Shown: in pieces, positions 747-28,994 of the stretch | Position numbering within the stretch: position 1 is the stretch's first letter | Layout of the letters: each line of letters opens with the position of its first letter | Origin: an uncultured Eubacteriales bacterium | GTDB taxonomy: Bacteria > Bacillota > Clostridia > Christensenellales > Aristaeellaceae | Assembly: GCA_902790495.1 (NCBI GenBank) | Contig: CADASK010000015.1 | Span: forward strand, 1 to 34,824 | Reading direction: 5' to 3' | DNA: 34,824 bases | The notes under the pieces: model-generated | What the model was told of the DNA's origin: nothing | Database searches by the model: none | What the model saw: only the letters and a program-made list of their open reading frames with translations | Position numbers and translations under genes: made by a program

Positions 747-1040
747 CATCTCACAGTTATTATAACCAAGCACACATTAGTAGCGGCTGCGCGAAGGGGT
801 GGAGGGGGCTCGGAGCGCCCGGAAAACTCCATGTTATGGAGTTTTCAGCGAAGAGCGGGCGGCAGCCCCGGACCGACCGCAAAGCCCCCTCCCCGCGCCC
901 GCAGGCGCGGAACCCCTGTGTTGCCCGACACAAACAAGAATCCTTTCATCAACCCATCATCTTAACACCGAAGCTTCTCCGGCCCGGCGTCAGGGCCGGA
1001 TCAGTGATACATCTCACCCGACAGAGGAGGTTATACCATC
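747..1040 (+). other. Leader region of the citrate lyase operon
   Basis: This gap holds R repeat copy R1 (791-915) and then about 125 bases before citD. The second part contains a hairpin at 978-1000 (TCCGGCCC / GGGCCGGA, loop GGCGTCA) without a T-run. I found no convincing -35/-10 pair, and no regulator or operator can be assigned. The citD ribosome binding site AGGAGG is at 1025-1030. Confidence 0.5.
791..915 (+). repeat. R repeat, long form (copy R1)
   Basis: Begins GCGAAGGGG and ends in the hairpin GCGCCCGCAGGCGC. The outer stem pairs GGAGGGGGC (801-809) with GCCCCCTCC. The insert hairpin is AACTCCAT / ATGGAGTT around the loop GTT. The core carries the conserved GACCGCAAAG block. Same sequence class as copies at 8555, 19880, 24164 and 28798. 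Confidence 0.85.
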
Positions 1041-1343
1041 ATGACCATCGAGAAGAGCGCCGTGGCCGGCACGCTGGAGAGCAGCGATGCCCAGGTGACG
1101 GTAGAGCCGGCCGACAGCGGCATCGAGCTGGAGATCACCTCCAGCGTGATGAACCAGTACGGCCGTCAGATCAAGGCCACGGTTCTGGAAACACTGAAGC
1201 GCCTGGACGTGGAAGCCGGACGCGTGACCGTCGTGGACAAGGGCGCCCTGGACTGCACCCTGAAGGCCCGCGTCGAGTGCGCCGTGTTCCGCAGCTGCGG
1301 TCAGTCTGACAAGAATATTCCCTGGGGAGGTGCTGTGAAATGA
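1041..1343 (+). CDS. citD: Citrate lyase acyl carrier protein (gamma subunit)
   Basis: The 100-residue acyl carrier subunit of citrate lyase. It carries the 2'-(5''-triphosphoribosyl)-3'-dephospho-CoA prosthetic group, on which acetyl and citryl thioesters are formed. The N-terminal GTLESSD motif places Ser14 at the attachment position known from the Klebsiella enzyme, and the length matches the family. AGGAGG stands 10 bases before the ATG. The stop codon overlaps the citE start as ATGA, so the two are translationally coupled. It is the first gene of citD-citE-citF-citC-citXG-hydratase. Confidence 0.95.
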   Translation: MTIEKSAVAGTLESSDAQVTVEPADSGIELEITSSVMNQYGRQIKATVLETLKRLDVEAGRVTVVDKGALDCTLKARVECAVFRSCGQSDKNIPWGGAVK

Positions 1344-2254
1344 TTCCCCGTCCAAAGCCTGAACGGTTCCGCCTGCGCCGCACCATGATGTTCATGAACG
1401 CGCAGAAGCCCGGCCTCATCAAGGACGCCTACATCTACGGCGTGGACTCCATCATGCTGGATCTGGAGGACGCGGTGGCTGAAAACCAGAAGGACGCCGC
1501 CCGCTTCAGCCTCTATCACGCCCTGAAGACCATCGACTACGGCGACACGGAAGTGATCGTGCGTATCAACGGCCTGGACACCCCCCACTGGCAGGAGGAC
1601 ATCCGCGTGTGCGTGGCGGGCGGTGCCGACGGCATCCGCATCGCCAAGTGCGAGAGCGCCCAGGACGTGCTCACCGTGGAGAAGGCCGTGGAGGAGGCCG
1701 AGAAGGAATTCGGCGTCGAAGTCGGCCGCACCCTGCTGATGGCCGCCCTCGAGAGCCCCAAGGGCATCCTCAACGCCTATGAGATCTGCGCGGCCAGCCC
1801 CCGCATGTTCGGCGTGGCCATCTCCGGCGGCGACTTCCGCAAGTGCATGCAGACCAAGCCCACCGCCTCCGGCATCGACATGCTCACCGCCCGCGGCATG
1901 ATGCTCATCGCCGCCCGCGCCGCCGGCGTGCAGTGCTTCGACACCGTCTTCACCGATCTGGACGACAACGAGGGCTTCCTCAACGAGGTGCGCCAGAACA
2001 AGGAGATGGGCTTCGACGGCAAGAGCCTGATCAATCCCAAGCAGATCCGCCCTGTGCACGAGATCTTCGCGCCCACCCAGAAGGAAGTCCTTCAGGCCGA
2101 AATGTGGGTGCAGGCCTTCCGCGAGGCCCAGGCCAAGGGCATCGGCGTGTTCACAGTCAACGGAAAAATGGTCGACGTGGCCTTCATCCCCGGCGCCGAG
2201 CGCACGCTCAAGCTGGCCAAGGCCTGCGGCATGTATGAGGGGGATCTGGTATGA
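1340..2254 (+). CDS. citE: Citrate lyase beta subunit (citryl-ACP lyase)
   Basis: Cleaves citryl-ACP to oxaloacetate and acetyl-ACP. The 304 residues match the HpcH/HpaI-like TIM-barrel family. The N-terminal RRTMMFMNAQKPGL stretch and the DSIMLDLEDAV motif (acidic, metal-binding region) are typical of CitE, as is the later GKSLINPKQI. The start overlaps the citD stop (ATGA) and the stop overlaps the citF start in the same way, giving tight coupling and near-equal subunit output, as expected for the alpha-beta-gamma complex. No truncation or missing motif is seen. Confidence 0.95.
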   Translation: MIPRPKPERFRLRRTMMFMNAQKPGLIKDAYIYGVDSIMLDLEDAVAENQKDAARFSLYHALKTIDYGDTEVIVRINGLDTPHWQEDIRVCVAGGADGIRIAKCESAQDVLTVEKAVEEAEKEFGVEVGRTLLMAALESPKGILNAYEICAASPRMFGVAISGGDFRKCMQTKPTASGIDMLTARGMMLIAARAAGVQCFDTVFTDLDDNEGFLNEVRQNKEMGFDGKSLINPKQIRPVHEIFAPTQKEVLQAEMWVQAFREAQAKGIGVFTVNGKMVDVAFIPGAERTLKLAKACGMYEGDLV

Positions 2255-3807
2255 AAAACGCAGTTGGACGCGAAATCCCGGACTTTCTGCTGAAGGATGG
2301 CCGCGAGGTCTATCAGGGCAAGAACTACATGGACGGCAAGTACCTGCAGAAGGCCGCCCCCCGCACCCGCCGGTATGAAAAGCCCCAGGAGAGCAAGATC
2401 GTCGACACCATCGTCGACGCCCTCAAGCAGGTCGGCGCCAAGAGCGGCATGACCTTCTCCTTCCACCATCACCTGCGCAACGGCGACTACGTCGTCAACA
2501 TGGTGATGCAGGCCGCCATCGAGGAGATGGGCCTGGACAACATCACCATCGCCGCCACCTCCCTGGGCGAGGCCCATGACCCCGTGGCCCAGTACATCGA
2601 GGACGGCAAGGTGGTCGGCATCCAGACCAGCGGCATCCGCGGCAAGATCGGCGAGGTCGTCTCCGCCGGCAAGCTGAAGACCCCCGCCATCATCCGCAGC
2701 CACGGCGGACGCCCCCGCGCCATCGAGGCCGGCGAGGTGCATATCGACATCGCCGTGGTCGCCGCCCCCACCAGCGACTGCGTGGGCAACTGCCGCGGCA
2801 TCGGCGGCAAGAGCAACTGCGGCTCCCTGGGCTACGCCATGACCGACGCCAAGTACGCCGATCACGTGATCGTGGTGACCGACTGCCTGGTGGACTTCCC
2901 GAACATGCCCGCCTCCGTCGAGGCCATCGACGTGGATGCCGTGGTGGTGGTGGATTCCATCGGCAATCCCAAGAAGATCGCCAGCGCCGCCGCCCGCATC
3001 TCCCAGAATCCCCGTGACCTGATGATGGCCGAGAACGTGGCCAAGGTCATCGCCTCCACCCCGTATTTCAAGGAGGGCTTCTCCTTCCAGACCGGCGTGG
3101 GCGGCCCGTCCCTGGCGGCCAACCTCTTCCTGGAGAAGTACATGGACGAGCGCGGCATCAAGATGGGCTGGGCCATCGGCGGCATCTGCGGCCCCATGGT
3201 CGAGATGCTCAAGAAGGGCAAGGTCGGCAAGGTGATCGACGTGCAGGACTTCGACCTGGACGCCGTCAACAGCATCAACCAGACCCCCAACCACTTTGAG
3301 ATGAGCGCCAGCCAGTACGCGAACCCCGCCAACAAGGGCGCCTTCGTCAACAAGCTGGACTTCGTGGTGCTGGCCGCCCTGGAGATTGACACCGGCTTCA
3401 ACGTCAACGTGCTGACCGGCTCCGACGGCGTGCTGCGCGGCGCGCCCGGCGGACACCCCGACACCGCCGCCGGCAGCAAGTGCTGCATCATCGTCACGCC
3501 CCTGATTCGCGGCCGCATGGCGACTGTGTGCAAGAACGTCGTGACCGTGACCACCCCCGGCGACTGCGTGGACGTGCTGGTGACCGACTACGGCATCGCC
3601 GTCAACCCGCTGCGCCCCGACCTGATCAAGTGCCTGGACGACGCTGGCATCCCGCACGTGACCATCGAGTCCCTGCAGGAGAAGGCCTACAGCCTGGTGG
3701 GCACCCCCGATGACCTCGAGTGGGAGGACAAGGTGGTGGCCGTCCTGGAGGCCCGCGACGGCACCATCCTGGACGTGGTTCGCAAGATCAAGCCTTTGAA
3801 GCTGTAA
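2251..3807 (+). CDS. citF: Citrate lyase alpha subunit (citrate:acetyl-ACP transferase)
   Basis: Exchanges the acetyl group on the ACP for citrate, producing citryl-ACP for CitE. At 518 residues it has the usual CitF length. The N-terminus (VGREIPDFLL, then YQGKNYMDGKY), the FSFHHHLRNGDYV block and the SHGGRPRAIEAGE block are characteristic. Glycine-rich stretches such as GGHPDTAAG near the C-terminus fit a CoA-transferase-type fold. The ATG overlaps the citE stop. It is followed after 31 bases by citC with its own strong ribosome binding site. Confidence 0.95.
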   Translation: MKNAVGREIPDFLLKDGREVYQGKNYMDGKYLQKAAPRTRRYEKPQESKIVDTIVDALKQVGAKSGMTFSFHHHLRNGDYVVNMVMQAAIEEMGLDNITIAATSLGEAHDPVAQYIEDGKVVGIQTSGIRGKIGEVVSAGKLKTPAIIRSHGGRPRAIEAGEVHIDIAVVAAPTSDCVGNCRGIGGKSNCGSLGYAMTDAKYADHVIVVTDCLVDFPNMPASVEAIDVDAVVVVDSIGNPKKIASAAARISQNPRDLMMAENVAKVIASTPYFKEGFSFQTGVGGPSLAANLFLEKYMDERGIKMGWAIGGICGPMVEMLKKGKVGKVIDVQDFDLDAVNSINQTPNHFEMSASQYANPANKGAFVNKLDFVVLAALEIDTGFNVNVLTGSDGVLRGAPGGHPDTAAGSKCCIIVTPLIRGRMATVCKNVVTVTTPGDCVDVLVTDYGIAVNPLRPDLIKCLDDAGIPHVTIESLQEKAYSLVGTPDDLEWEDKVVAVLEARDGTILDVVRKIKPLKL

Positions 3808-3838
3808 TACTTGAAATAAACGCAAGGAGGTGTCCACC

Positions 3839-4891
3839 GTGAGCTACACGATCGCTCCCGTCAGCCCGGCTGACAAGCGCCGCCAGGCCGCGGTGGACGC
3901 CCTCCTCATCAAGGAAGGCATCCGCCGCGACGCCCACCTGGACTACACCTGCGCGGTCTACGACGAGGACTTCAGCCTCTGCGCCACGGGCAGCTGCTTC
4001 GGCAACACCCTGCGCTGCATGGCCGTGGACAGCGGCCACCAGGGCGAAGGCCTGATGAACCTGGTGGTCAGCCACCTGAGCGAGGTGCAGGCCGCCCGCG
4101 GCAACACCCACCTCTTCCTCTACACCAAACCCGGCAGCGCCAAGTTCTTCGGCGACCTGGGCTTCTACGAGATCGCCCGCGTGAGCGGCAAGCTGGTCTT
4201 CATGGAAAACCGGCGCACCGGCTTCGCGGACTGGCTCGCGGCCCAGCAGCGCGCCGACACCCCGCGGGAGAGAACCGCCGCCGTGGTGATGAACGCCAAC
4301 CCCTTCACCCTCGGCCACCGGTATCTGCTGGAGCAGGCCTGCGCCCGCGCCGACGCCGTGCACCTCTTCGTGCTCAGCGAGGACGCCGGACCCATCCCCG
4401 CCGCCGACCGCCTCCGCCTCGTACTGGAGGGCATTGCCGATATGGCCTGCCGCGGCAAGCTGATTCTCCACGAGAGCGGGCCCTACATCATCTCCGCCGC
4501 GACCTTCCCGGGCTACTTCCTCAAGGACAGCGACGAGGTCTCCGAGACCCACGCGCGGCTTGATCTCAACGTCTTCGGCCGTGTCGCCGAGGCCATGGGC
4601 ATCGGCGCGCGCTTCGTGGGCGAGGAGCCCTTCAGCCACGTCACAAGCCTGTACAATCAGGCCATGCGCGAGGAGCTGCCCAAGCTGGGCGTCGCCTGCG
4701 AGGTGATCCCCCGGCTGGAGGAGGGCGGCGCGGCCATCAGCGCCAGCGCCGTGCGCCAGGCCGTGCACGATGGCCAGATCGAGCGGATACGCCCTTGGGT
4801 GCCCGAGAGCACCTGGAACTACTTCACCGGCCCCGACGGCGCAAAAGCCGTGGCGGCCATCCAGAGCATGAACGATGTCAAACATCACTGA
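3839..4891 (+). CDS. citC: [Citrate lyase] ligase (acetate:SH-citrate lyase ligase)
   Basis: Activates citrate lyase by acetylating the thiol of its prosthetic group with acetate and ATP. Starting at GTG 3839 gives 350 residues. An upstream in-frame GTG at 3830 lies inside the Shine-Dalgarno AAGGAGG (3824-3830), so the later start, 8 bases after it, is preferred. An N-terminal GNAT-like domain (about 1-135, with GHQGEGLMNLV) precedes a nucleotidyltransferase domain containing NPFTLGHRYLLEQA (the T/HxGH signature) and ISASAVRQAV near the end (ISTSxxR-like), the standard CitC arrangement. The 3' end overlaps citXG by 17 bases. Confidence 0.93.
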   Translation: MSYTIAPVSPADKRRQAAVDALLIKEGIRRDAHLDYTCAVYDEDFSLCATGSCFGNTLRCMAVDSGHQGEGLMNLVVSHLSEVQAARGNTHLFLYTKPGSAKFFGDLGFYEIARVSGKLVFMENRRTGFADWLAAQQRADTPRERTAAVVMNANPFTLGHRYLLEQACARADAVHLFVLSEDAGPIPAADRLRLVLEGIADMACRGKLILHESGPYIISAATFPGYFLKDSDEVSETHARLDLNVFGRVAEAMGIGARFVGEEPFSHVTSLYNQAMREELPKLGVACEVIPRLEEGGAAISASAVRQAVHDGQIERIRPWVPESTWNYFTGPDGAKAVAAIQSMNDVKHH

Positions 4892-6203
4892 GAAAACCCT
4901 GCCGGACACCCCGCGGGAGGCCACCCTCACCGACGTGCTGGAGGCCCGCGAGAAGCGCGTGAGCTGCCAGCAGCGGCTGCTGGAGCGCTTCCGGAAGCCG
5001 GTGGTCTGCTTCACGCTGAACATCGCCGGGCCGGTCAAGGTGGACGAGGCCACACGCTACGCCTTCCGCGTCGGCCGGGAGCGGCTGACCGAGGGGCTGA
5101 AGACCATGGGCTTCGACCTGCTGGGCAGCGAGACCCTCGTCTCCGTGGCCGGGCAGGAATACCTCGCCGCCGTGAGCGCCCCGGCCGAGGCCCTCAAGCG
5201 CCTGTGCGTCTCCCTGGAGGAGCTGGATCAGCTGGGCCGCCTGTTCGACCTGGACGTGATCGGCACCGACGGGCAGAAGCTGGAGCGCGGCGCGGAGCGC
5301 AGCTGCCTGGTGTGCGGCAAGCCCGGACGCGGCTGCGCCAGCCGCCGGGTGCACCCTGTGGACGAGATCCGCGCCGTGACCCAGGGCATCATCCGGGCGC
5401 ACCAGACCCGGGAGCAGACCCGGCGCGTCGCCACGGCGGCGGTGCAGAGCCTGCTGGACGAGGTCTGCGTGACCCCCAAGCCCGGCCTGGTGGACCGCGA
5501 GAACAACGGCAGCCATCGGGACATGGACATCTTCACCTTCATGGCCAGCGCCTCGGCCCTCTACCCCTACTTCGAGGCCTGCTGCCTCGCGGGCCTGCGG
5601 GACAGAGCGCTGGACGCGGCGACAGCCTTCCGCCGCCTGCAGAGCCTCGGCATCGAGGCCGAGCGGGTGATGCGCCAGGCCACCCACAGCGTGAACACCC
5701 ACAAGGGCGCGATCTTCACCCTGGGCGTGCTGTGCGCCGCCGCGGGCCGCGCGGGCGACACCCGTGTGGAGCCCTGGCTGCACTGCTGCGCCGAACTGGC
5801 CGCCTCCTACCGGAGCAGCGGCGTGCGCGGCGAGGTGGCCGACGGCCTGCCCAGCGTGGCGGCCTGCGGTCTGCCCGCTCTGCGCGCAGCGCGGGAGAAG
5901 GGCTGCACCTTCAACGACCAGTGCCTCGCGGCGCTGCTCGCGCTGATCGCCCATGTGGAGGACACCAACATGGTGTCCCGGGGCGGCAGCCTCGTCGCCC
6001 GAAGGGCCCGCGCCGAAGCCCAGGCCCTCATCGACGCCCTTGGGAGCGGCGCCGAGACCCGGCCCCTGCCGATGCTCATGGAGGCCATGAACCGCGATTA
6101 CGTCGCGCTGAACCTCTCCCCCGGCGGCTGCGCCGACCTGCTGGCCGCCACCCTGCTGGTGGACCGTATCACCCAATCATCATCCGAAACTATGGAGGAA
6201 TAA
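4875..6203 (+). CDS. citXG: Fused CitX-CitG: citrate lyase prosthetic group transferase and synthase
   Basis: One 442-residue protein joins two steps of prosthetic group biosynthesis. The N-terminal part (about 1-175) is CitX, which transfers the phosphoribosyl-dephospho-CoA group to apo-ACP; it has GRLFDLDVIG and the cysteine-rich CLVCGKPGRGCASRR. The C-terminal part (about 176-435) is CitG, which makes the triphosphoribosyl-dephospho-CoA precursor from ATP and dephospho-CoA; it has TPKPGLVDRENNGSHRDMD and NTHKGAIFTLG. Separate CitX and CitG are known, and fusions occur in other bacteria. The start overlaps citC. The stop is followed at once by the hydratase ATG. Confidence 0.92.
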   Translation: MSNITEKTLPDTPREATLTDVLEAREKRVSCQQRLLERFRKPVVCFTLNIAGPVKVDEATRYAFRVGRERLTEGLKTMGFDLLGSETLVSVAGQEYLAAVSAPAEALKRLCVSLEELDQLGRLFDLDVIGTDGQKLERGAERSCLVCGKPGRGCASRRVHPVDEIRAVTQGIIRAHQTREQTRRVATAAVQSLLDEVCVTPKPGLVDRENNGSHRDMDIFTFMASASALYPYFEACCLAGLRDRALDAATAFRRLQSLGIEAERVMRQATHSVNTHKGAIFTLGVLCAAAGRAGDTRVEPWLHCCAELAASYRSSGVRGEVADGLPSVAACGLPALRAAREKGCTFNDQCLAALLALIAHVEDTNMVSRGGSLVARRARAEAQALIDALGSGAETRPLPMLMEAMNRDYVALNLSPGGCADLLAATLLVDRITQSSSETMEE

Positions 6204-6205
6204 AC

Positions 6206-8479
6206 ATGCTGAAGCTGTATGATTCCGGCGTCTATCTGCTCAAGGGCAGAGAGATCGTCACCGACGCACAGGCCGCCGCCCAGAAGGCCGGCCATCCCGT
6301 GACCCAGGCGGAGGCCGCGAAGGGCACCATCGCCTACGGCATTCTCCAGGCCCACAACAAGAGCGGCGACATGGAGCACCTGCAGATGCGCTTCGACAGC
6401 CTGACGAGCCATGACATCACCTATGTCGGCATCATCCAGACAGCGCGCGCCTCCGGGATGAAGCAGTTCCCCATGCCCTACGTCCTGACCAACTGCCACA
6501 ACAGCCTGTGCGCGGTGGGCGGCACCATCAACGAGGATGACCACATGTTCGCCCTCTCCGCCGCCCACAAGTACGGCGGCGTGTACGTGCCCACCAACCT
6601 CGCCGTGATCCACAGCTTCAACCGCGAGATGATGGCCGGCTGCGGCCGCATGATCCTCGGCTCCGACAGCCACACCCGCTACGGCGCCATCGGCACCCTG
6701 AGCGTGGGCGAGGGCGGCGGTGAGCTGGCCAAGCAGCTGGTGGGCCGCACCTACGACGTGGCGCGCCCCGGCGTCATCCTGATCTACCTGGACGGCGAGC
6801 CCAAGCCCGGCGTCGGCCCCCAGGACGTGGCGCTGACCATCTGCGGCGCGGTGTACAAGAACGGCTACGTCAAGAACAAGGTGATGGAGTTTGTCGGCCC
6901 CGGCGTCGCCAAGCTGCCCATGGAATACCGCAACGGCATCGACGTGATGACCACCGAGACCACCTGCTGGTCCTCCATCTGGGAGACCGACGGCGCGACC
7001 GAGGAGTACCTGACCATCCACAGCCGTCCCGAGGCCTATAAGAAGATGGAGCCCGCCGACGTCGCCTACTACGACGGCTGCGTGTACATTGACCTCTCCA
7101 CCGTGGAGAGCACCATCGCCCTGCCGATGCATCCCAGCAACACCATCACCATCCGCGAGCTGCTGGAGAATCCGAAGGACATCCTCTACGCCTGCCAGGA
7201 GCAGGCCAACAGCCAGATCGTCGGTGCGAAGATCGACCTGGTCAGCAAGGTGCACGACGGCGGCGTCTGGGTCGAGCAGGGCCTGGTGGCCGGCTGCTCC
7301 GGCGGCACCTTCGACAACGTGTGCGCCGTGGCGGACATCCTGCGCGGCCACTCCACCGGCAACGGCGCCTTCACCATGAGCGTCTATCCCGGCTCCATGC
7401 CCGCCTACCTGCAGCTGATGAAGAACGGCGCGCTGGGCGACATCGCCGCCGCGGGCGCCATCATCCGCGAGTGCTTCTGCGGCCCGTGCTTCGGCGCCGG
7501 CGACACCCCGGCCAACGGCGAGCTCTCCATCCGCCACACCACCCGCAACTTCCCCAACCGCGAGGGCTCCAAGCCCGGCGAGGGCCAGATGAGCGGCGTG
7601 GCCCTGATGGACGCCCGCTCCATCGCAGCCACCGCCATCAACCACGGCAAGCTGACGCCCGCCACCGACCTGGACGTGAAGTACACCAAGTATCCCTACG
7701 TGTTCGACAAGTCCGTGTACGACAAGCGCGTCTACTTCGGCTTCGGCAAGGCCGACCCGAACTATGAGCTGAAGTTCGGCCCGAACATCAAGGACTGGCC
7801 CGAGCAGCCCGCCCTGACCGACGACCTGCTGGTCAAGGTCTGCTCCTACATCACCGACCCGGTGACCACCACCGACGAGCTGATCCCCTCCGGTGAGACC
7901 TCGTCCTACCGCTCCAACCCCGAGCGCCTGAGCGAGTTTGCCCTCTCCCGCAAGGATCCCGCCTACGTGGGCCGCAGCAAGGCCGTGCGCCAGATCGAGC
8001 GCGACCGCGCCGCCGGCAAGGAGCTGCCCGACGAGGTGAAGCAGGTCTACGCCGCCCTGGAGAAGGTCGTCAAGGTCGATCCCGAGCACACCGACATCGG
8101 CTCCACCATCTTCGCCGTGAAGCCCGGCGACGGCTCCGCCCGCGAGCAGGCCGCCAGCTGCCAGCGCGTGCTGGGCGCCTCCGCCAATCTGGCCAAGGAG
8201 TACGCCACCAAGCGCTACCGCTCCAACTGCATCAACTGGGGCATGGCCCCCATGCTGGTGAAGGACGAGAGCGCCTTCGCCCTGGGCGACTGGGTGTTTG
8301 TACCCGGCCTGCGCAAGGCTGTGCTGGAGGGCACGCCCGAGTTCACCGCCTACGCGGTGAAGCCCGACGGCCAGGTGACGCCCTTCCAGGTGTCCCTGGG
8401 CGATCTGACGCCCGACGAGCGGCAGATCATCGCAGACGGATGTCTGATCAACTACTATCGCAATCATCCCGTTGATTGA
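6206..8479 (+). CDS. Aconitase-superfamily hydratase (YbhJ-like)
   Basis: A 757-residue member of the aconitase/homoaconitase superfamily, closest in length and layout to the E. coli YbhJ type, whose substrate is unsettled. LGSDSHTRYG (151-160) matches the aconitase GTDSHT block. Cluster-ligand cysteines are visible at C364 (AGCSGG) and at C425 and C428 (CGPCFG), so a 4Fe-4S cluster is expected. AGGAA stands before the ATG at 6206, which lies three bases after the citXG stop, so it belongs to the citrate operon. Possible roles are interconverting citrate with aconitate or isocitrate, or feeding other tricarboxylates into citrate lyase (inference). Confidence 0.85.
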   Translation: MLKLYDSGVYLLKGREIVTDAQAAAQKAGHPVTQAEAAKGTIAYGILQAHNKSGDMEHLQMRFDSLTSHDITYVGIIQTARASGMKQFPMPYVLTNCHNSLCAVGGTINEDDHMFALSAAHKYGGVYVPTNLAVIHSFNREMMAGCGRMILGSDSHTRYGAIGTLSVGEGGGELAKQLVGRTYDVARPGVILIYLDGEPKPGVGPQDVALTICGAVYKNGYVKNKVMEFVGPGVAKLPMEYRNGIDVMTTETTCWSSIWETDGATEEYLTIHSRPEAYKKMEPADVAYYDGCVYIDLSTVESTIALPMHPSNTITIRELLENPKDILYACQEQANSQIVGAKIDLVSKVHDGGVWVEQGLVAGCSGGTFDNVCAVADILRGHSTGNGAFTMSVYPGSMPAYLQLMKNGALGDIAAAGAIIRECFCGPCFGAGDTPANGELSIRHTTRNFPNREGSKPGEGQMSGVALMDARSIAATAINHGKLTPATDLDVKYTKYPYVFDKSVYDKRVYFGFGKADPNYELKFGPNIKDWPEQPALTDDLLVKVCSYITDPVTTTDELIPSGETSSYRSNPERLSEFALSRKDPAYVGRSKAVRQIERDRAAGKELPDEVKQVYAALEKVVKVDPEHTDIGSTIFAVKPGDGSAREQAASCQRVLGASANLAKEYATKRYRSNCINWGMAPMLVKDESAFALGDWVFVPGLRKAVLEGTPEFTAYAVKPDGQVTPFQVSLGDLTPDERQIIADGCLINYYRNHPVD

Positions 8480-8554
8480 GGCGTCATGAAAAAGCGCTGC
8501 GGGGCTGGAGAGGCTTTGGCCTCTTCGGCCCCGCAGTTGCGCGTCTCAATCACA

Positions 8555-8680
8555 GGGTTCCGCGCCTGCGGGCGCGGGCAGGGGGCTTTGCGATCGGTCC
8601 GGGGCTGCCGCCCGTTCTCCGCTGAAAACAGTCCACTGGACTGTTTTCCGGGCGCTCCGAACCCCCTGCACCCCTTCGCA
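8555..8680 (-). repeat. R repeat, long form (copy R2)
   Basis: Inverted relative to R1. It starts with the CGCGCC-TGC-GGGCGCG hairpin and ends CCCCTTCGCA. The outer stem is CAGGGGG / CCCCCTG. The insert hairpin AAAACAGTCCA / TGGACTGTTTT differs in sequence from R1 while keeping its pairing. Confidence 0.85.
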
Positions 8681-8710
8681 TCGCAATTTTAGCAAGCTAT
8701 CGAAACCCCA

Positions 8711-8767: not shown

Positions 8768-8791
8768 ATTTCACGTAGACAAGGAGCATCT

Positions 8792-18995: not shown

Positions 18996-19056
18996 GCGAA
19001 GGTTTCCAAAGGGCGATCGCAAAGCCCTTTGGTCGCCGCCCGCAGGCGGCGAAATC
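18996..19056 (+). repeat. R repeat, short form (copy R3a)
   Basis: GCGAAGG end at the left; outer stem CCAAAGGGC / GCCCTTTGG around GATCGCAAA; end hairpin CGCCGCC-CGC-AGGCGGCG type. Faces R3b tail to tail. Confidence 0.8.
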
Positions 19057-19071
19057 CCCCTGCAAAGAGGA

Positions 19072-19128
19072 TTCCGCGCCTGCGGGCGCGGGTCAGGGGC
19101 TTTGCGGTCGCCCCTGACAACCCTTCGC
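19072..19128 (-). repeat. R repeat, short form (copy R3b)
   Basis: End hairpin CGCGCC-TGC-GGGCGCG, outer stem TCAGGGGC / GCCCCTGA around TTTGCGGTC, then CCCTTCGC. It is 15 bases from R3a and inverted to it, yet both stems have different sequences from those of R3a. Confidence 0.8.
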
Positions 19129-19856: not shown

Positions 19857-20120
19857 TGCTTTCATGCCTGCAAGAAGGATTTCGGCCTGCGGGCCGACCC
19901 GGGGGCTTTGCGATCGGTCCGGGGCTACCGCCCGCTCTCCGCTGAAAACGCCATAACATGGCGTTTTCCGGGCGCTCCGAGCCCCCGGGACCCCTTCGCA
20001 GCGTGCATATACAGTTTTGCCATCGTATAAAAGAATCAGATGAATCTTATCTGGCTGCCAAACTGGCGGTCTTTTTTGCTAATTTTTTGTCATTGTTGGC
20101 TCGCCGAGAGCCTCGCCGCC
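19857..20120 (+). other. Intergenic region with R4 repeat
   Basis: Holds the long R repeat copy R4 (19880-20000) and about 120 bases of AT-richer sequence leading to the promoter of the 754-residue protein. No gene seen. Confidence 0.5.
19880..20000 (-). repeat. R repeat, long form (copy R4)
   Basis: End hairpin CGGCC-TGC-GGGCCG, outer stem CCCGGGGGC / GCCCCCGGG, insert hairpin AACGCCAT / ATGGCGTT. Compared with R1, one insert-stem pair has changed on both sides. Confidence 0.85.
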
Positions 20121-22456: not shown

Positions 22457-22468
22457 TGTCATCAATGC

Positions 22469-22511: not shown

Positions 22512-22519
22512 CACAGGGA

Positions 22520-22576
22520 TTCCGCGCCTGCGGGCGCGGGTCAGGGGCTTTGCGATCGCCCCTGACAACCCTTCGC
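22520..22576 (-). repeat. R repeat, short form (copy R5)
   Basis: End hairpin CGCGCC-TGC-GGGCGCG, outer stem TCAGGGGC / GCCCCTGA around TTTGCGATC, then CCCTTCGC. Nearly identical to R3b. Its CTTCGC end faces R6. Confidence 0.8.
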
Positions 22577-22638
22577 CCGCCTCTCAGGGCTTGTTTTAAG
22601 CATTTTCCCAATAGAACTGCCAAATCCAAACGCATGCT

Positions 22639-22695
22639 GCGAAGGGGTCCCGGGGGCGATCGCAAAGCCCCCGGGTCGGCCCGCAGGCCGAAACC
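22639..22695 (+). repeat. R repeat, short form (copy R6)
   Basis: GCGAAGGGG end, outer stem CCCGGGGGC / GCCCCCGGG around GATCGCAAA, end hairpin CGGCC-CGC-AGGCCG type. Stem bases match R4 rather than its neighbour R5. Confidence 0.8.
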
Positions 22696-22742
22696 TCTTT
22701 CTTCAAAGATGAAGCCTTCTTAACTGAAAACAGTATCATCCA

Positions 22743-23144
22743 TTAGAAATTGACAGTCTCCGGCGCTTCGGTGAAAGAGCAGAACGTCGCGGTAGCGTTC
22801 TTGAAATACAGCATCTGCATGTTGCCGTCATCCGGGCTGTACATGCCCTTGAGCGAGGGCATCTTCTCCAGCATGGCAACCTTCACCTCGCGGCTGTCGT
22901 CGTTCACCAGCTCGCCGGCCACGCGCAGCCAGGTCGGGCCCTTGCAGGCGCAGATCTCCACCTTGGGATTCGCGGCAATCTGCTTGGACACATTCTTCAC
23001 CTTGCCGGTCTCGATGTAGAGCTTGCCATCATAGAGCAGGGCAGTGCCGAAGGGGCGCACGCGGGGCTGATCGCCCTCCATCGTGGCGAGATAGTAGGTG
23101 TGGACTTCGTCCAGGTATTGGCAGACCCGTTCGATTGCTTCCAT
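22743..23144 (-). CDS. Pyridoxamine 5'-phosphate oxidase-family FMN split-barrel protein
   Basis: 133 residues from the ATG at 23144, preceded by GAGGAGG. YYLATMEGDQPRVRPFG followed by YDGKLYIETGKVKNVSKQI is the standard opening of small PPOX-like proteins, which bind FMN (or F420 or heme in some branches) in a split barrel. No specific substrate can be given. The upstream gene on the same strand, 102 bases away, is CofE-like, so the two may share a transcript and a flavin/deazaflavin-related role (inference). A remnant R hairpin lies between them. Confidence 0.85.
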   Translation of the reverse strand: MEAIERVCQYLDEVHTYYLATMEGDQPRVRPFGTALLYDGKLYIETGKVKNVSKQIAANPKVEICACKGPTWLRVAGELVNDDSREVKVAMLEKMPSLKGMYSPDDGNMQMLYFKNATATFCSFTEAPETVNF

Positions 23145-23216
23145 AAGTAAAGCCTCCTCATCTTTATCTGCACATAGACTGCAGCGTCTATTATGCGCGA
23201 AATCAGTTTGACAGCG

Positions 23217-23241
23217 GGGTTCCGCGCCTGCGGGCGCGGGC
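23217..23241 (-). repeat. R repeat remnant (end hairpin only, R7)
   Basis: Only TTCCGCGCC-TGC-GGGCGCGGG remains, between the two reverse-strand genes and immediately after the stop of the CofE-like gene. It has no body or GCGAAGG end. Confidence 0.6.
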
Positions 23242-23246
23242 ATCCA

Positions 23247-23990
23247 TTACCCCAGCGGGCGGATCAGGATGAACGGGGTCAGCTCGCCGCCCTGGCCGGA
23301 GGGGTTGTCCTTCAGCGCGTCCTGAATCTGATCGTCCGTCAGCGGGAAATCGCTGCACTTGCCCAGCTGGTTCTGGTCGATATCGTTGGCATCCATCAGC
23401 ACCACCGGCACGCCCGTCGCCTTCTCCAGCGCGTCGCACAGCTCCACGGGGTTCTCGTTGTTGATCAGCGCCAGGTCCTTGTAGCGGTCGAAGGAGGAGC
23501 GATAGTAGAAGCCGTCGATGCCGGCTACGCCCTTGCCCACGATCTTGTAGAACAGGCCCTTGACGCCGAAGAGCTTGGTCACCGCGGACACCACCGAGGC
23601 GAACACCACCCGCGGCGCGCCGACCATGTCGATGGCCAGCTGCAGCTTGTAGGGGTCGTGCATGCCGATGCCCGCCGTGGTCTCGCTGGCGTGGGGGCTG
23701 AGCAGCCTCGCCCAGAAGCCCGGCTTCACCTGCTCCTTGGTGCGCACGTTCTTCGTGCACATCGCCATCACCTTCGCGCCGAAGGCCAGCACGTCCCCCG
23801 GCTGATACAGCGGCAGTACATAGCGCCGCACCAGCTCGGCCTGATCCTCGCCCACCTCGATGAAATGGGTATGGATGGCGAAGCGATCATAGCGCTTGCC
23901 GTCGCGGCCGGTGAGGGTGCCGCGGTCGAAATATTCCACGCCGTTGTGTTCCCGGCGCTGGGATTCAAGGTTGCGGGATTCGGTGCCCAT
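23247..23990 (-). CDS. CofE-like (coenzyme F420-0:gamma-glutamyl ligase family) protein
   Basis: 247 residues; the ATG at 23990 follows AAGGAGG. The sequence fits the CofE-like family found in Firmicutes that are not known to make F420: FAIHTHFIEVGEDQ near the N-terminus, YQPGDVLAFGAKVMAM (the CofE position of PGDVLVVASK) and GGELTPFILIRP at the end. True CofE adds glutamates to F420-0 using GTP. Whether this one does is unknown, because no other F420 gene is visible. It has its own good promoter on the reverse strand (24029-24057) and is followed by a split-barrel FMN protein. Confidence 0.75.
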   Translation of the reverse strand: MGTESRNLESQRREHNGVEYFDRGTLTGRDGKRYDRFAIHTHFIEVGEDQAELVRRYVLPLYQPGDVLAFGAKVMAMCTKNVRTKEQVKPGFWARLLSPHASETTAGIGMHDPYKLQLAIDMVGAPRVVFASVVSAVTKLFGVKGLFYKIVGKGVAGIDGFYYRSSFDRYKDLALINNENPVELCDALEKATGVPVVLMDANDIDQNQLGKCSDFPLTDDQIQDALKDNPSGQGGELTPFILIRPLG

Positions 23991-24028
23991 GCGGGTTGCC
24001 TCCTTGCGTCAAAGCTTCTTCCTCCCGT

Positions 24029-24057
24029 ATTCTACAGCGGAGACAGGAACTTGTCAA
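24029..24057 (-). promoter_or_regulatory. Sigma-A promoter of the CofE-like gene
   Basis: Read on the reverse strand: TTGACA (24057-24052), 17-base spacer, TAGAAT (24034-24029). It ends 39 bases before the ATG. Confidence 0.85.
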
Positions 24058-24069
24058 TGAAGGGTTGGA

Positions 24070-24128
24070 GGAAGACCTCATCCGTCAGCGTCTTATGACG
24101 CTGACACCTTCCCCAAAGGGGAAGGCTT
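24070..24128 (-). repeat. S repeat (copy S2)
   Basis: Read on the reverse strand: CCTTCCCC-TTT-GGGGAAGG, then GTCAGCGTC-ATAA-GACGCTGAC, then GGATGAGG. It matches S1 in layout, with changed but still paired stems. Confidence 0.75.
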
Positions 24129-24163
24129 AACCCCTTTACGAATGCTATGCGTGTAAGGCAGCT

Positions 24164-24285
24164 GCGAAGGTTTGCAAAGGGTTCGGAGCGCCCGGAAAAC
24201 TCCATGTTATGGAGTTTTCAGCGGAGAACGGGCGGCAGCCCCGGACCGACCGCAAAGCCCTTTGCCCGCGCCCGCAGGCGCGGAA
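24164..24285 (+). repeat. R repeat, long form (copy R8)
   Basis: GCGAAGG end, outer stem GCAAAGGG / CCCTTTGC, insert hairpin AACTCCAT / ATGGAGTT identical to R1, end hairpin CGCGCC-CGC-AGGCGCG type. Confidence 0.85.
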
Positions 24286-24300
24286 TCTCTGTCGCAGGGG

Positions 24301-24357
24301 ATTTCGCCGCCTGCGGGCGGCGACCAGAGGCTTTCCGATCGCCTCTGGACTCTTCGG
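24301..24357 (-). repeat. R repeat, short form (copy R9)
   Basis: End hairpin CGCCGCC-TGC-GGGCGGCG, outer stem CCAGAGGC / GCCTCTGG around TTTCCGATC, then CTCTTCGGGC, a slightly decayed CTTCGC end. Tail to tail with R8, 16 bases apart. Confidence 0.75.
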
Positions 24358-24436
24358 GCCGCATCCTTTAACGGAAACTGTGATGATTTGGCGGCAGACA
24401 TGGAACCTCCACCGCCAGGATATCCCCTAACACCAA

Positions 24437-24465
24437 TGGACAAACCCACCAAACCATGGTATACT
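24437..24465 (+). promoter_or_regulatory. Sigma-A promoter of rfbA with extended -10
   Basis: TGGACA (24437-24442), 17-base spacer, TATACT (24460-24465) preceded by TGG, an extended -10. 66 bases before the ATG. Confidence 0.85.
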
Positions 24466-24531
24466 TTCCCTGACAAAACCGGGCGGACGGGCCCGGTCCA
24501 CGCAAACAACCGAAACAGGGAGGTACATCCG

Positions 24532-25419
24532 ATGAAGGGCATTGTGCTGGCAGGCGGCGCGGGAACGCGGCTCTATCCGCTCACCATGGTCACATCCAAG
24601 CAGCTTCTCCCCATCTATGATAAGCCCATGATCTATTACCCGCTCTCCACGCTGATGCTGGCGGGCATCCGGGATATCCTCATCATCTCCACGCCCACCG
24701 ACACGCCGCGCTTCGAGGCGCTGCTGGGCGACGGCAGCCAGTTCGGCCTGCAGCTGAGCTACAAGGTGCAGCCCTCGCCGGACGGCCTGGCCCAAGCCTT
24801 CCTGCTGGGTGAGGAGTTCATCGGCGACGACTCCTGCGCCATGGTGCTGGGCGACAACATCTTCTACGGCAACGGCTTCGGCCGCATGCTGCGCGGCGCG
24901 CTGGCGCGGGCGGATGAGGAGAACCTGGCCACCATCTTCGGCTACTATGTCAACGACCCTGAGCGCTTCGGCATCGTCGAGTTCGACGAGAACGGCAAGG
25001 TCATCTCCGTGGAGGAGAAGCCCCAGCACCCGAAGTCCAACTACTGCATCACCGGCCTCTATTTCTATCCCAAGGGCGTCAGCGCCCTGGCCCACGAGGT
25101 GAAGCCCTCCGCCCGCGGCGAGCTGGAGATCACCACCCTCAACGATCTCTACCTGAAGCAGGATCGCCTGCACGTGGAGCTGCTGGGCCGCGGCTTCGCC
25201 TGGCTGGACACCGGCACCATGGATTCCCTGGTGGATGCGGCGGACTTCGTGCGCACCCTGGAGAAGCGCCAGTCCATCACCATCTCTGCGCCCGAGGAGA
25301 TCGCCTACCGCAACGGCTGGGTGGACAAGGAGCACCTGCTGCTCTCCGCCGAGCGCTACGGCAAGAGCCCCTACGGCGCGCACCTGCGGGCCGTGGCCGA
25401 GGGAAAGATCCGGTACTGA
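24532..25419 (+). CDS. rfbA: Glucose-1-phosphate thymidylyltransferase
   Basis: Makes dTDP-glucose from glucose 1-phosphate and dTTP, the first step of dTDP-L-rhamnose and related sugar synthesis. 295 residues, the usual RmlA/RfbA length. The N-terminal [11 protein letters not shown] is the nucleotide-binding motif; [25 protein letters not shown] and [11 protein letters not shown] are canonical. AGGGAGG stands 8 bases before the ATG. The other dTDP-sugar genes (rfbB, C, D) are not in this window, so it appears as a lone gene with its own promoter, followed by an R repeat. Confidence 0.95.
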
Positions 25420-25438
25420 CGTTTAGATCGGTTTCGCT

Positions 25439-25498
25439 GCGAAGGGGTGCAGGGGGCGACCGCAAAGCCCCCTGCCCGCGCCCGCAGGCGCGGAACCC
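25439..25498 (+). repeat. R repeat, short form (copy R10)
   Basis: GCGAAGGGG end, outer stem GCAGGGGGC / GCCCCCTGC around GACCGCAAA, end hairpin CGCGCC-CGC-AGGCGCG type. Lies 20 bases after the rfbA stop. Confidence 0.82.
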
Positions 25499-25543
25499 TT
25501 GCCAACCGCACACGGTTGGAGTGGTTGAAAGAAGGTTTCTCTC

Positions 25544-28500
25544 ATGAAAAAACGCTGGCTTTCGCGCCTCTCCCTGCTGACGGCGATGTGCCTGACCCTT
25601 GTCACGCTCTGCGGCGGCGCGTCCGCGGCGAACCGGCTCAGCCCCTTCGGCTCGCCCTTCGCCCCCGCCGCCGAGGCAGCGTCCCCGGCCCAGCCGGAAG
25701 CGCAGACCGAGGCGGCTCCCGTGCCCGCGGCTGAGACTGTCCCCGCCGAGACACAGACCGCTGCGCCTGTGTCCGAAGCGCTGCCCGCGCTTCCGCCCGC
25801 TCTGCCCGACGCCCTCGACGGCGCGTCCGCGGAGAGCGCCGTGATCGACGTGGCAGCCGGCGCGGAGGTTGTTCTCCCGGCGGCAGACACCGTGGAAGCC
25901 GCCCTCCCGGAGACCTCCGAGCTCACCGTCCCCGCCGAGGCCGACGGCCTGATGCAGGTGGGCGGGTCCTTCAGCGCGGCCCTGACGGAGGCCAAGCCGA
26001 CAGCCCGCGTGCGCCTGCAGGTGGAACAGGCCGCGACCCTCGTCCTCACCGCCGAGGGCATGCCCGTCAGCCTGATGGTGACGAACGAATTCTCCGGCCT
26101 GTCGCAGCTCTTCACCCCCGAGCGCGCCAGCGGTGCGGAGGGCGAGAGCGCCTGGCAGCCCCTGATGGCCGCCTTCGCGGCGCAGCCCGGCAGCTACCTC
26201 ATCACCGTGGAGCCCGCCGAGGCCAGCCTGACCGGCATCGTGACCGTGTGGGCCTCCGCCGTGGCTGAGGCCGCAGCCGCCTCCGCGGAGGAAGTGGCCG
26301 CCGTTGAGGCTGAAGCCGAACCGGAAGCCGTGGAGGCCGCGGTCGAAGTCCCGGCTGAGCCCGCCGTGGAGGAGCCGGCCGCGCCCGTCGAGGAAGCGCC
26401 GGCGCCCGTCGCCGTGGAAGCCGAGGCCGTGACCGAGGTCAGCATCGAGATCGGCAGCGTCACGTATGAGACCGCGGCGGAGGACGGAAGCAGCCAGCCC
26501 GCCGAGGTCGCCGCGGAGCCTGCGATCGTCGAGGCGGAGGACGCCCCGGCTGAACCGATCGAGGAGGCCGCGGCGGAGGAAGCTCCGGCCACCGCCATCG
26601 ACATCGAAATCCTGCCCGAGGCGGAGGCGGAGGCTGTGGAAGCCGCGCCCGCCGAAGACCCAGCTGCGGAAGCCGAGCCTGCAGAAAGCCCCGAGGTGGA
26701 ATCCGCCGAGGCCTCCGCGCAGCCTGAACCGGCTGTGGACGGCGTGCGCCCCGGCCCGCAGGACGCGGTCATCGGCAGCGACGACACGCCCATCTCCCGC
26801 GGCAGCCCCGTGGTGCTGGCCAGCGCGACCACGGTCGCCTGCGGTGCGCCGGTCACCTTCACCGTCAGCGGCCTGATGGCCTCCACCTACCATTTCTACC
26901 TGTTCTCCATCCCGGTGGGCGGCAGCGCGGCCACCCAGTTCAACAACCAGAGCGGTTCCTCCTTCACCTTCACCAGTGCCACGCCCTCGGACAACCGCGA
27001 CATCTACTGCGTGGTGAACTGCCTGACCAACACCGGCTGGCAGCAGCTGGTGTCCGGCTGGGTGCACGTGCGCGCCTCTGCGGCCATCACCGTCACCGCG
27101 GACCGCACCAGCGTCGAGGAGGGCAAGCAGGTCACCTTCACGGTGCACCAGCACGCCGGCGCGCCGGCCTTCTACTACTATTACATCATCATGAACCCGG
27201 CCAACAGCCAGCTCTATTCCTTCTCCAGCACCTCCAATACCTTCACCTACACCGCGCCCGCGGGACAGACCAACATCATCTGCCTGGCCTATGCCTACAA
27301 CGGCAGCTTCACCTCCGCCTTCAGCCCGTGGGTGGCGGTCACGCCCTCCACAGCCCTGAAGGTCGCCTGCTCGGTGAACGTGACCTCCGTGACAGCGGGC
27401 TCGCCCGTGACCGTCAAAGTCACCAAGGTTTCCGGTGCAAATCCCATCACCGGCTGCTACTTCATGCTCTATGACGGCTCAAACATCCTGTCACCCACAA
27501 GCCTGCTCACCTCTTCCTCCTACACCTTCACCGCGCCGAATATGACCGGCACGCTGTACGGCTATGTCCTCGCAACGGACGGCAGCACTTGGGCCTCGGC
27601 CATTTCCGCGCCCTTCACCGTGACCGCGGCGGCCTCGCTGACCTTCTCCGTCATCCCCTCTGCCCTGACCGTGCGGGCGGGCGAGACCATGTGGTTCAGC
27701 GTCACCCCGCTGACCGGCGGCCCGATCCTCCTGTACGACTACACGATCACCGACGGCGTCAATCCGCCGATCCACGTCACCAGCACCAGCAGCTTCATCA
27801 CCTATACGCCGCCCGCGGGTGTGACCAACGTCATCTGCACCGTGCAGTGCTATGACGGCACCTGGGCCGGGCCGGTCTCCTCGCCCTGGGTGAGCGTGGT
27901 CAGCCCGACCTACCGCGCCTTGATCATCGGCCAGAGCTACAGCGGCACCTCCATGCAGCTGCAGGGCCCGCCGAACGATTCCAACGGCATGGCCGCCATG
28001 CTCGGCACCATGAGCGCGACGCCCTACACCGTCACCCGCCGCACCAACCTCACGCGCAACGGCATCCTCAACGCCATCTCCTCGACCTTCGCGGGCGCGG
28101 GCAACGGCGACGTCTCCCTGCTGTACTACGCGGGCCACGCCGTGACCAGCACCGCCGCCCTGATCGGCTCCGACCTGCTGACGCTGACGCCCTACCAGCT
28201 GCGCCAGGCCCTGGACCAGATCCCCGGCAAGAAGATCGTTATCTTCGACGCCTGCTACTCCGGCGCCACCATCGGCCGCGGCGTGACGGACGGCGACATC
28301 CTCGTCGAATCCGCTGAGAGCAGCGGCGAGGAGGACGGCTCGGCCCTCGCCAGCCAGATGGCCTCGGCCTTCATGGGCGCCTTCCGCGGCGCCAACACGA
28401 GCCTCAACGGCGCGCAGAGCCGCTCCACCACGGACCTGGCCGACGCGGGCTACTACGTGCTCTGCTCCGCCCACTCCACCCAGGAGAGCTGGGAGAGCGG

Positions 28501-28741
28501 CGGCTACGGCTGGTTCACCCAGACCCTGACCCTCGCCAGCGGCTACAACGAAAAGACCGGCGCGACCCTGGCCCTGGCCGCCGACAGCAACGGGGACAAG
28601 TTCATCTCCCTCAGCGAGGCCTTCTCCTACCTGCAGCACCACTACGACGGCTACACCCTCGACGCTTTCGGCAAGCCCGTCTATTTCAACACCCAGTGCT
28701 ACCCCGCCGGCAGCAGTCAGAAGCTGTATGGGAGGAATTGA
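25544..28741 (+). CDS. Secreted caspase-fold (peptidase C14-like) protein with Ig-like repeats
   Basis: 1065 residues. Signal peptide 1-28 (core LLTAMCLTLVTL, cleavage after ASA). Residues 35-130 and 240-400 are rich in Ala, Pro and Glu, a likely extended spacer. A folded segment lies at about 135-240. Four related beta-sandwich-like repeats follow (about 415-510, 512-600, 603-695, 697-790), each with a pattern like FTFTVSG or VTFTVHQ and ending near W-V-V. The C-terminal caspase-like domain (791-1060) starts YRALIIGQSY and has the dyad His865 (YYAGHA) and Cys904 (FDACYSGA). An EF-hand-like loop, D1014-N1016-D1018-E1025, sits within it. No cell wall anchor is seen. Probably an exported cysteine peptidase; target unknown. 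Confidence 0.85.
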   Translation: MKKRWLSRLSLLTAMCLTLVTLCGGASAANRLSPFGSPFAPAAEAASPAQPEAQTEAAPVPAAETVPAETQTAAPVSEALPALPPALPDALDGASAESAVIDVAAGAEVVLPAADTVEAALPETSELTVPAEADGLMQVGGSFSAALTEAKPTARVRLQVEQAATLVLTAEGMPVSLMVTNEFSGLSQLFTPERASGAEGESAWQPLMAAFAAQPGSYLITVEPAEASLTGIVTVWASAVAEAAAASAEEVAAVEAEAEPEAVEAAVEVPAEPAVEEPAAPVEEAPAPVAVEAEAVTEVSIEIGSVTYETAAEDGSSQPAEVAAEPAIVEAEDAPAEPIEEAAAEEAPATAIDIEILPEAEAEAVEAAPAEDPAAEAEPAESPEVESAEASAQPEPAVDGVRPGPQDAVIGSDDTPISRGSPVVLASATTVACGAPVTFTVSGLMASTYHFYLFSIPVGGSAATQFNNQSGSSFTFTSATPSDNRDIYCVVNCLTNTGWQQLVSGWVHVRASAAITVTADRTSVEEGKQVTFTVHQHAGAPAFYYYYIIMNPANSQLYSFSSTSNTFTYTAPAGQTNIICLAYAYNGSFTSAFSPWVAVTPSTALKVACSVNVTSVTAGSPVTVKVTKVSGANPITGCYFMLYDGSNILSPTSLLTSSSYTFTAPNMTGTLYGYVLATDGSTWASAISAPFTVTAAASLTFSVIPSALTVRAGETMWFSVTPLTGGPILLYDYTITDGVNPPIHVTSTSSFITYTPPAGVTNVICTVQCYDGTWAGPVSSPWVSVVSPTYRALIIGQSYSGTSMQLQGPPNDSNGMAAMLGTMSATPYTVTRRTNLTRNGILNAISSTFAGAGNGDVSLLYYAGHAVTSTAALIGSDLLTLTPYQLRQALDQIPGKKIVIFDACYSGATIGRGVTDGDILVESAESSGEEDGSALASQMASAFMGAFRGANTSLNGAQSRSTTDLADAGYYVLCSAHSTQESWESGGYGWFTQTLTLASGYNEKTGATLALAADSNGDKFISLSEAFSYLQHHYDGYTLDAFGKPVYFNTQCYPAGSSQKLYGRN

Positions 28742-28994
28742 CGGACTTCTATATCTTCCCTGTTCAATTATCACTCAGTTCATCTATCAGGATGCGGGCG
28801 AAGGGGTGCAGGGGTTCGGAGCGCCCGGAAAACTCCATGTTATGGAGTTTTCAGCGGAGAACGGGCGGCCGCCCCGGACCGACCGCAAAGCCCCCTGCCC
28901 GCGCCTGCAGGCGCGGAACCCCTGCCGCCAGCTCAATGGCGAGGATGAGAATGCCGGTGCAAACGCCCATTCGCATCCTCGCCGAAAAAAGACC
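28742..28994 (+). other. Intergenic region with R11 and a long hairpin
   Basis: Holds R11 and a hairpin at 28938-28983: GGCGAGGATG pairs with CATCCTCGCC, with inner GAATG / CATTC. The hairpin is followed by GAAAAAA, not by a T-run, so it is not an obvious terminator on this strand. Confidence 0.5.
28798..28922 (+). repeat. R repeat, long form (copy R11)
   Basis: GCGAAGGGG end, outer stem GCAGGGG / CCCCTGC, insert hairpin AACTCCAT / ATGGAGTT as in R1 and R8, end hairpin CGCGCC-TGC-AGGCGCG. Confidence 0.85.

Follow-up and report, generated by a model that had tools for sequence, protein, structure and literature searches.

Intrastrand triplex repeats such as BoxC and PIT are known by their sequence motif, by their folding in the test tube and by their association with rearranged loci. 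For TMECO repeats, Holder et al. (2015; PMC4666352) report at most 143 copies per genome and an A-with-B rule that holds for each of the five inverted pairs in E. coli. Here we describe R, a dispersed repeat of which eleven copies and one remnant lie in a stretch of 34,824 nucleotides (nt) from an uncultured Eubacteriales bacterium (contig CADASK010000015.1; this whole stretch is referred to as the window, and its genome as G000). R shares with BoxC, PIT and TMECO the purine-motif intrastrand triplex code, a G+C-rich core of about 36 nt, an intergenic position (in the case of R, mostly), a copy number that differs sharply among close relatives and inverted neighbours of unlike type (5/5 in E. 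coli, 64/64 for R). In contrast, TMECO has stems of 9 nt and the strand order of class II (pyrimidine, purine, third strand), whilst R would follow the class I order (third strand, purine, pyrimidine) over about 5 triplets; R further differs in its loop-to-5'-end pseudoknot, its added end hairpin, its optional arm, its unrelated sequence and its copy number, with up to 419 pattern matches in one genome. Neither the class II order nor the BoxC/PIT/TMECO consensus CCCTCNCCC..GGGNGAGGG..GGGNGAGGG is found in R, and the R core lies outside the limits of the ITxF search (at least 6 triplets, loops of 1–6 nt); R cores do contain the three segments of a general intrastrand purine motif, with G:G, A:A or T:A between third and purine strands and Watson-Crick pairs between purine and pyrimidine strands. 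The main text of PMC4666352 contains none of the words clostrid, firmicutes, covari, compensat and pseudoknot, and searches of the open-licence PMC literature gave no description of the R sequence family. R would most economically be described as a repeat of the BoxC/PIT kind to which a pseudoknot has been added.

We lean towards the view that R is a family of non-autonomous DNA repeats which spreads horizontally and whose members work as one folded DNA strand. In this fold, the loop of the core hairpin would pair back to the first three bases of the element (a GCG/CGC or CCG/CGG pseudoknot), and the linker would lie antiparallel as a third strand on the purine strand of the stem, giving a class I purine-motif intrastrand triplex in the order reverse-Hoogsteen, purine, pyrimidine. 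The window copies carry a second hairpin, which would close the 3' end, and an optional 65-nt arm would sit in the loop. A strand exposed during replication or recombination would fold in this manner, and a trans-acting factor would recognise the fold and spread copies, these surviving mostly between genes. The sequences themselves show the covariation, the pseudoknot pair, the mirror coupling, the high but patchy copy number and the unlike types of inverted neighbours, whereas formation of the third strand, folding as DNA instead of RNA and movement by an enzyme in trans are inferred from them.

The initial annotation had placed eleven copies and a remnant in the window, and a profile built from the repeats matches at the sites of all eleven copies; the remnant (23217-23240) consists only of the end hairpin and tail. 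Its statement that all copies share GCGAAGG and a core GATCGCAAAG or GACCGCAAAG holds for ten of the eleven, in which GCGAAGG is accompanied by GAYCGCAAAG; in the exception (24299-24355), CCGAAGAG is combined with GATCGGAAAG. The copies fall into two forms, a short one of about 63 nt and a long one of about 127 nt that bears the 65-nt arm inside the loop. Within this arm a separate hairpin covaries, as does a GCTC/GAGC pairing (column 19-65: CG 37 and TA 22 of 61 distinct long copies), and some long copies appear chimeric. One chromosomal site is occupied by a short element in G000 (L069 2872-2934), whilst in the genome G005 (L140 8056-8181) it holds a long element whose arm is different: here the arm was gained or lost, or the copy was replaced.

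Covariation was analysed with alignment A1, which comprises 50 distinct, gapless 37-nt cores from G000, G005, G001, G010, G035, G144, G321, viral contigs and two further loci (G011, G019). A1 was preselected for at least 7/9 stem pairs, which excluded 10 of 60 distinct cores, and the tests were repeated on all 60. Over 12 pairs in A1 (9 of the stem and 3 of the pseudoknot), 97.0% are paired and covariation reaches 0.396, compared to 0.151 in shuffled alignments (0/500 as high) and at most 0.132 in slid ones. With all 60 unfiltered cores, 90.0% of stem cells are paired (G.T counted) as against 76.5% (maximum 80.2% in 500 trials) when the 3' strands are exchanged, and stems change in step on the 61 distinct long copies as well. 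The changes in step noted in the initial annotation are hence borne out, although its claim that stems are always matched goes too far: 17/450 stem cells of A1 are unpaired. Watson-Crick covariation above the shuffled and slid controls, together with a pseudoknot pair and a mirror coupling that had not been noticed before, makes it very likely that the folded form is what matters, as had been proposed. The annotation had recognised no named family, and indeed no Rfam family reaches its gathering score on any copy (best 30 bits vs 90). Two additional helices, each seen in some copies and favoured by energy, were considered and rejected: a three-way junction closed by AGGGGT/AACCCC pairs no better within copies than between shuffled ones (3.51 vs 3.57, n=95) and shows no covariation, and an outermost flank stem is likewise no better within than between copies (3.40 vs 3.50, n=95).

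A model-free ranking of all 120 pairs among the 16 variable columns of A1 puts the pair 1-25 first, followed by the stem pairs 11-37 and 13-35 and then by 9-14 and 8-15. Pair 1-25 is GC in 30 cores of A1, CG in 19 and other in 1; for the 60 cores the figures are 33, 25 and 2 (58/60 fit), and in a wider set the pair fits in 108/113 unique cores. The stretches from G144, G035 and G068 provide no test of this pair because they were chosen through a CCG..CGG pattern; after removal of cores known only from genomes fetched in this way, 49/51 fit. Since the first base of the element thus pairs with a base of the hairpin loop, the pair describes a pseudoknot, and it explains the odd copy 24299-24355, in which both partners have changed. 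CGAAG, GAYCG and AAA were fixed by the regular expressions used, and so their constancy is no finding.

The pairs 9-14 (GG 28, TA 17 and AA 1 of 50) and 8-15 (GG 25, TA 11 and AA 11 of 50) are not of the Watson-Crick type: the linker mirrors the purine strand of the stem by G:G, A:A and T:A, as in GGTTT-CC-AAAGG, GGGGT-GC-AGGGG and GGAGT-CC-AGAGG. At the two inner positions of the 60 unfiltered cores, 109/120 cells follow this mirror code, compared to 59.0 (standard deviation (sd) 5.7, maximum 77 of 2000) with linkers exchanged. A second test began from 54 linker and stem strings, of which 7 arising from a doubled CGAAG were removed; from the remaining 47, the 23 distinct strings of 13 nt were used, and over four positions 82/92 cells agree with the code versus 60.2 (sd 3.5, maximum 71 of 2000) upon shuffling. 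Rival codes applied to these 92 cells account for 28 (Watson-Crick), 56 (mirror identity) and 28 (pyrimidine motif), all with lower z. The coupling is also seen in the genus g51, which has few and mostly differing copies: its 31 distinct strings fit at 4.03/5 positions compared to 3.60 when exchanged (sd 0.10, maximum 3.90 of 2000), or 4.24 versus 3.75 without two strings (G061, G100), the CCG-class strings of G144 being taken from 26 of 32 matches, those listed. As PMC4666352 gives A(T)AT and GGC as the triplets of antiparallel purine-motif triplexes, we read the GG/TA/AA coupling as the code of such a DNA triplex. Comparative evidence for selection of an intrastrand DNA triplex in cells was not found in open-licence papers.

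This coupling also bears on a neutral origin, in which templated correction, together with gene conversion among copies, would keep the stems of functionless palindromes paired. Orthologous copies at the same site that differ in type (L043/L131, L048/L118, L072/L139) would suit such a process, as would the chimeric copies and the lack of a wobble preference (see below). We nevertheless judge it highly unlikely, because Watson-Crick-templated correction cannot create G:G or A:A coupling and the mirror code recurs in g51. At the site L043/L131, linker, purine and pyrimidine positions have all changed together; replacement by another copy could also account for this.

The initial annotation had offered RNA or a transposase substrate as the folded molecule, and the balance now tilts to DNA. 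RNA is reported not to adopt antiparallel purine-motif triplexes (Holder et al. 2015, PMC4666352), which makes it more likely that the fold is one of single-stranded DNA. G.T wobbles do not outnumber A.C mismatches (30 vs 40, all helices counted), a weak indication because recent mutations look alike for DNA and RNA. Some observations in G000 would suit an alternative in which R is a structured RNA element, its fold selected as RNA, that acts in transcripts (chiefly in their 3' untranslated regions) to stabilise mRNA or to prevent read-through: by our own rough gene finder and for the sampled copies, on which all counts relative to genes rest, the element is co-directional with the genes at 68/96 tandem sites (68:28, P 5e-5) and in 13/17 cases in which the gene is oriented opposite to the strand that prevails locally, and 53/92 co-directional copies begin 15-50 nt past the stop codon. 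RNA folds of the 4 copies tried are also stable (z -3.3 to -5.3). This preference is not shared by G005 (13:13), G010 (14:12) or G144 (4:12, an opposite lean with P 0.08), and by eye no T-run directly follows the stem in the window copies. As the 3'-untranslated position in G000 is not repeated in these three genomes, we have dropped a purely RNA reading and consider an RNA element unlikely. The lack of a common orientation, the wobble counts and the triplex code together favour single-stranded DNA, which is perhaps, with modest confidence on our part, the molecule that folds. In genus g51 (L225 and L234 of G144), some cores run into a T-run in the manner of an intrinsic terminator (..GCCTCCTTTTTCT, ..GCCCTCGCGTTTTTT), which may hint at the origin or a use of the element.

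The R family occurs far beyond chance. The pattern GAYCGCAAAGN{1,20}CGCAGGC has 341 matches in the 2.47-Mb own genome and its reversed control 0, and 149 copies were found in 770,755 sampled bases of G000, corresponding to about 477 per genome if evenly spread. The distribution is patchy: across 12 genomes of the genus, the GCG-class pattern yields 341 matches in the own genome, then 64, 20, 2 and 1, with 0 in the remaining 7. A stricter pattern is present in 12/300 genomes of the family, including G321 (19) and G152 (6) from other genera, and the CCG class in 33/150 family genomes (G010 419, G035 275, G068 96, G000 31). Outside the family only single matches were obtained: with 291 genomes sampled across the class, the own genome gave 311 matches and 21 others one each, the control giving one match in 9. 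An exact 28-nt match in named records leads to metagenome-assembled genomes (MAGs) of Clostridia from horse faeces and goat omasum and to an uncultured Clostridia MAG. The family thus extends over several genera and into viral contigs: 5 of 12 viral-contig stretches hold real copies (L154, L159, L160, L162 and L163, from three IMG/VR contigs), the other 7 being chance matches as judged by eye.

Some viral copies lie within open frames, at L162 1819-4077, L160 8099-8665 and L163 1816-2337; one falls near residues 67-78, ahead of a portal domain (PHROG match from residue 161), and one near residues 40-60, on the N-terminal side of a Holliday-junction resolvase domain (residues 84-188). The rough gene finder does not call starts that would include the copies of the portal and resolvase frames, and reading through them is putative. 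Such copies can be likened to Rickettsia palindromic elements, whilst bacterial R copies are mostly intergenic. Other palindromic repeats (..CAGTCATCGCTGACGCGATGACAGCTCCCCTCATAGGGGAGCC.., ..CTCTGTCACCTGCGGGTGACATCTCCCCTTTCAGGGGAGAGG..) stand beside some copies (L043 6151-6482, L160 and L163).

That copies lie between genes, as initially annotated, is correct for most of them in the own genome, where 10/149 overlap called genes, and less so in G005, with 24/84; the values are 3/80 for G010, 2/23 for G144, 0/12 for G035 and 7/17 for viral contigs. Divergent sites make up 15/135 in G000, 3/59 in G010 and 13/51 in G005, and this last value indicates that promoter avoidance is not general. In G010, convergent-gene sites are enriched (30/59, P 2e-6), a value to be read with the knowledge that copies in inverted pairs are not independent.

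With regard to how R spreads, repetitive extragenic palindromic (REP) sequences and REPINs mobilised by RAYT offer a comparison: both are dispersed palindromes with inverted pairs and a suspected single-strand DNA intermediate. A family of this kind, mobilised in its folded single-stranded form by RAYT or by a Y1 transposase of the IS200 type, would fit the high copy number, the mostly intergenic position, the paired inverted copies, the foldable strand and the enrichment at convergent sites in G010. We consider it quite unlikely, since PF01797 (Y1, RAYT/IS200) has no match in the repeat-rich genomes G000, G001, G005 and G010 (92-95% complete, such that a missed gene is possible) and the flanks of 98 copies (30 bases on the upstream side or past the tail) contain no fixed tetranucleotide of the GTAG/CGTC type. 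Among 12 congeners PF01797 is present in only 3 (G006, G007, G009), of which G006 has 31 CCG-class matches. RVT_1 and TnpB (PF07282) are also without a match in the same four repeat-rich genomes, and IS110 reaches its cut-off only in G004; these four (Y1, RVT, TnpB, IS110) were the families searched, and no candidate mobiliser emerged among them. A bolder and tentative proposal, which we hold to be rather doubtful, is that R represents a large mobile class whose spreading form is a pseudoknot of single-stranded DNA held in place by a purine-motif triple helix, the third strand being kept matched by evolution and the fold recognised by an enzyme that is neither a Y1 transposase nor a reverse transcriptase.

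Comparison of occupied and empty sites addresses the possibility that R copies are miniature inverted-repeat transposable elements (MITEs), derivatives of a DDE insertion sequence that are bounded by terminal inverted repeats. For the 29 own copies with both flanks syntenic in sampled G005, the site there is occupied in 9 cases and vacant in 20; in the reverse direction (n=16), the figures are 10 and 6. At the empty sites the bases adjoining the copies are mostly unalignable, and no clean insertion or target duplication can be read. Size, copy number, mostly intergenic position, patchiness and a weak AGGGGT/AACCCC similarity of the ends are in keeping with MITEs, but by eye the ends are not inverted repeats (GCGAAGG vs CAGGGRTT) and AGGGGT/AACCCC does not covary (95 copies). 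MITEs are the least probable of the explanations weighed here.

R copies also cluster: neighbours at less than 200 nt number 20 in G000 compared to a uniform expectation of 5.8, and 27 compared to 2.8 in G010, an excess that intergenic restriction alone raises. Inverted neighbours with an identical linker and stem string are absent (0/64 with 14.4 expected); most of these pairs come from G010 (P 2e-5), and the P values for the other genomes are 0.17 in G000, 0.37 in G005 and 0.05 in G035. Avoidance of long perfect palindromes could explain unlike inverted neighbours for both R and TMECO.

Several points weigh against R as a folded DNA strand spread in trans. Variation in the pseudoknot is confined to the first of its three pairs, the other two being invariant with bases fixed by the search pattern, and for G-rich types the folding energies (RNA and DNA) prefer a pairing of linker with tail, although this pairing shows no covariation. 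It is the base coupling that suggests formation of the third strand, which would comprise only about 5 triplets (4-5 scored), and the hairpin loop measures 9 nt. When the 23 strings are joined in a minimum spanning tree of 22 steps, the code is preserved in 2 double changes, and 1 further double change lies outside it before and after, whilst among single-side changes 3 keep the code and 11 break or restore it, 5 of these at the turn position; there are therefore few independent coupled events, and shuffles overstate significance because copies are related. To this can be added the strand preference and the peak past the stop codon in G000, which would suit RNA, the copies inside genes and the unavoided divergent sites of G005, and the outcome of the search for a mobiliser in the four families.

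Table 1. R elements of the window and sub-parts of the type example (coordinates in the window)
Feature	Position	Strand	Basis and remarks
R element, long form, GGAGGGGG stem	791..918	+	profile match 126.7 bits, positions 1-128
R element, long form	8552..8679	-	profile match 116.6 bits; orthologous copy in L127, site also occupied in species G005
R element, short form, GGTTT/CCAAAGGGC type	18996..19057	+	58.8 bits; tail-to-tail with 19065..19128
R element, short form, GGGTT/GTCAGGGGC type	19065..19128	-	60.3 bits
R element, long form, CCCGGGGGC type	19874..19999	-	113.7 bits
R element, short form	22514..22576	-	62.9 bits; head-to-head with 22639..22699
R element, short form, CCCGGGGGC type	22639..22699	+	47.0 bits
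R remnant, end hairpin and tail only	23217..23240	-	sequence; direct repeat D6
R element, long form, GGTTT/GCAAAGGG type	24164..24291	+	138.4 bits; tail-to-tail with 24299..24355
R element, short form, CCG/CGG pseudoknot class (CCGAAGAG..GATCGGAAAG)	24299..24355	-	32.1 bits; sequence
R element, short form, type example for sub-parts	25439..25501	+	59.6 bits
Pseudoknot strand 5' (GCG), proposed partner 25461-25463	25439..25441	+	columns 1-3 of alignment A1
Linker AAGGGGT, proposed reverse-Hoogsteen third strand	25442..25448	+	GG/TA/AA coupling of columns 8-9 to columns 15 and 14
Outer stem, 5' purine strand	25449..25457	+	columns 11-19 of A1
Pseudoknot strand 3' (CGC, hairpin loop)	25461..25463	+	columns 23-25 of A1
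Outer stem, 3' pyrimidine strand	25467..25475	+	columns 29-37 of A1
End hairpin CCGCGCC-CGCA-GGCGCGG	25476..25493	+	RNA and DNA folding
R element, long form	28798..28923	+	119.2 bits

Beyond the repeats listed in Table 1, the window encodes a 1065-aa protein (25544-28741) with a caspase-like Peptidase_C14 domain at residues 791-998, and two adjacent tRNA-Ser genes (tga, gct; 29040-29233) stand just past the last R copy. A perfect 50-nt tandem duplication (33997-34096), of a length not divisible by three, lies within or beside short reading frames.

If R does spread as such a triplex-bearing single strand, it would provide comparative evidence for an intrastrand DNA triplex selected in cells. 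The many natural variants that change linker, purine and pyrimidine strands together make the question of whether cells use the third strand testable with synthetic 37-mers selected from those found in nature, and through the purine-motif code covariation can serve to distinguish folds of DNA from those of RNA. A cognate enzyme, if found, would represent a mobile-element system outside the RAYT/IS200 scheme.

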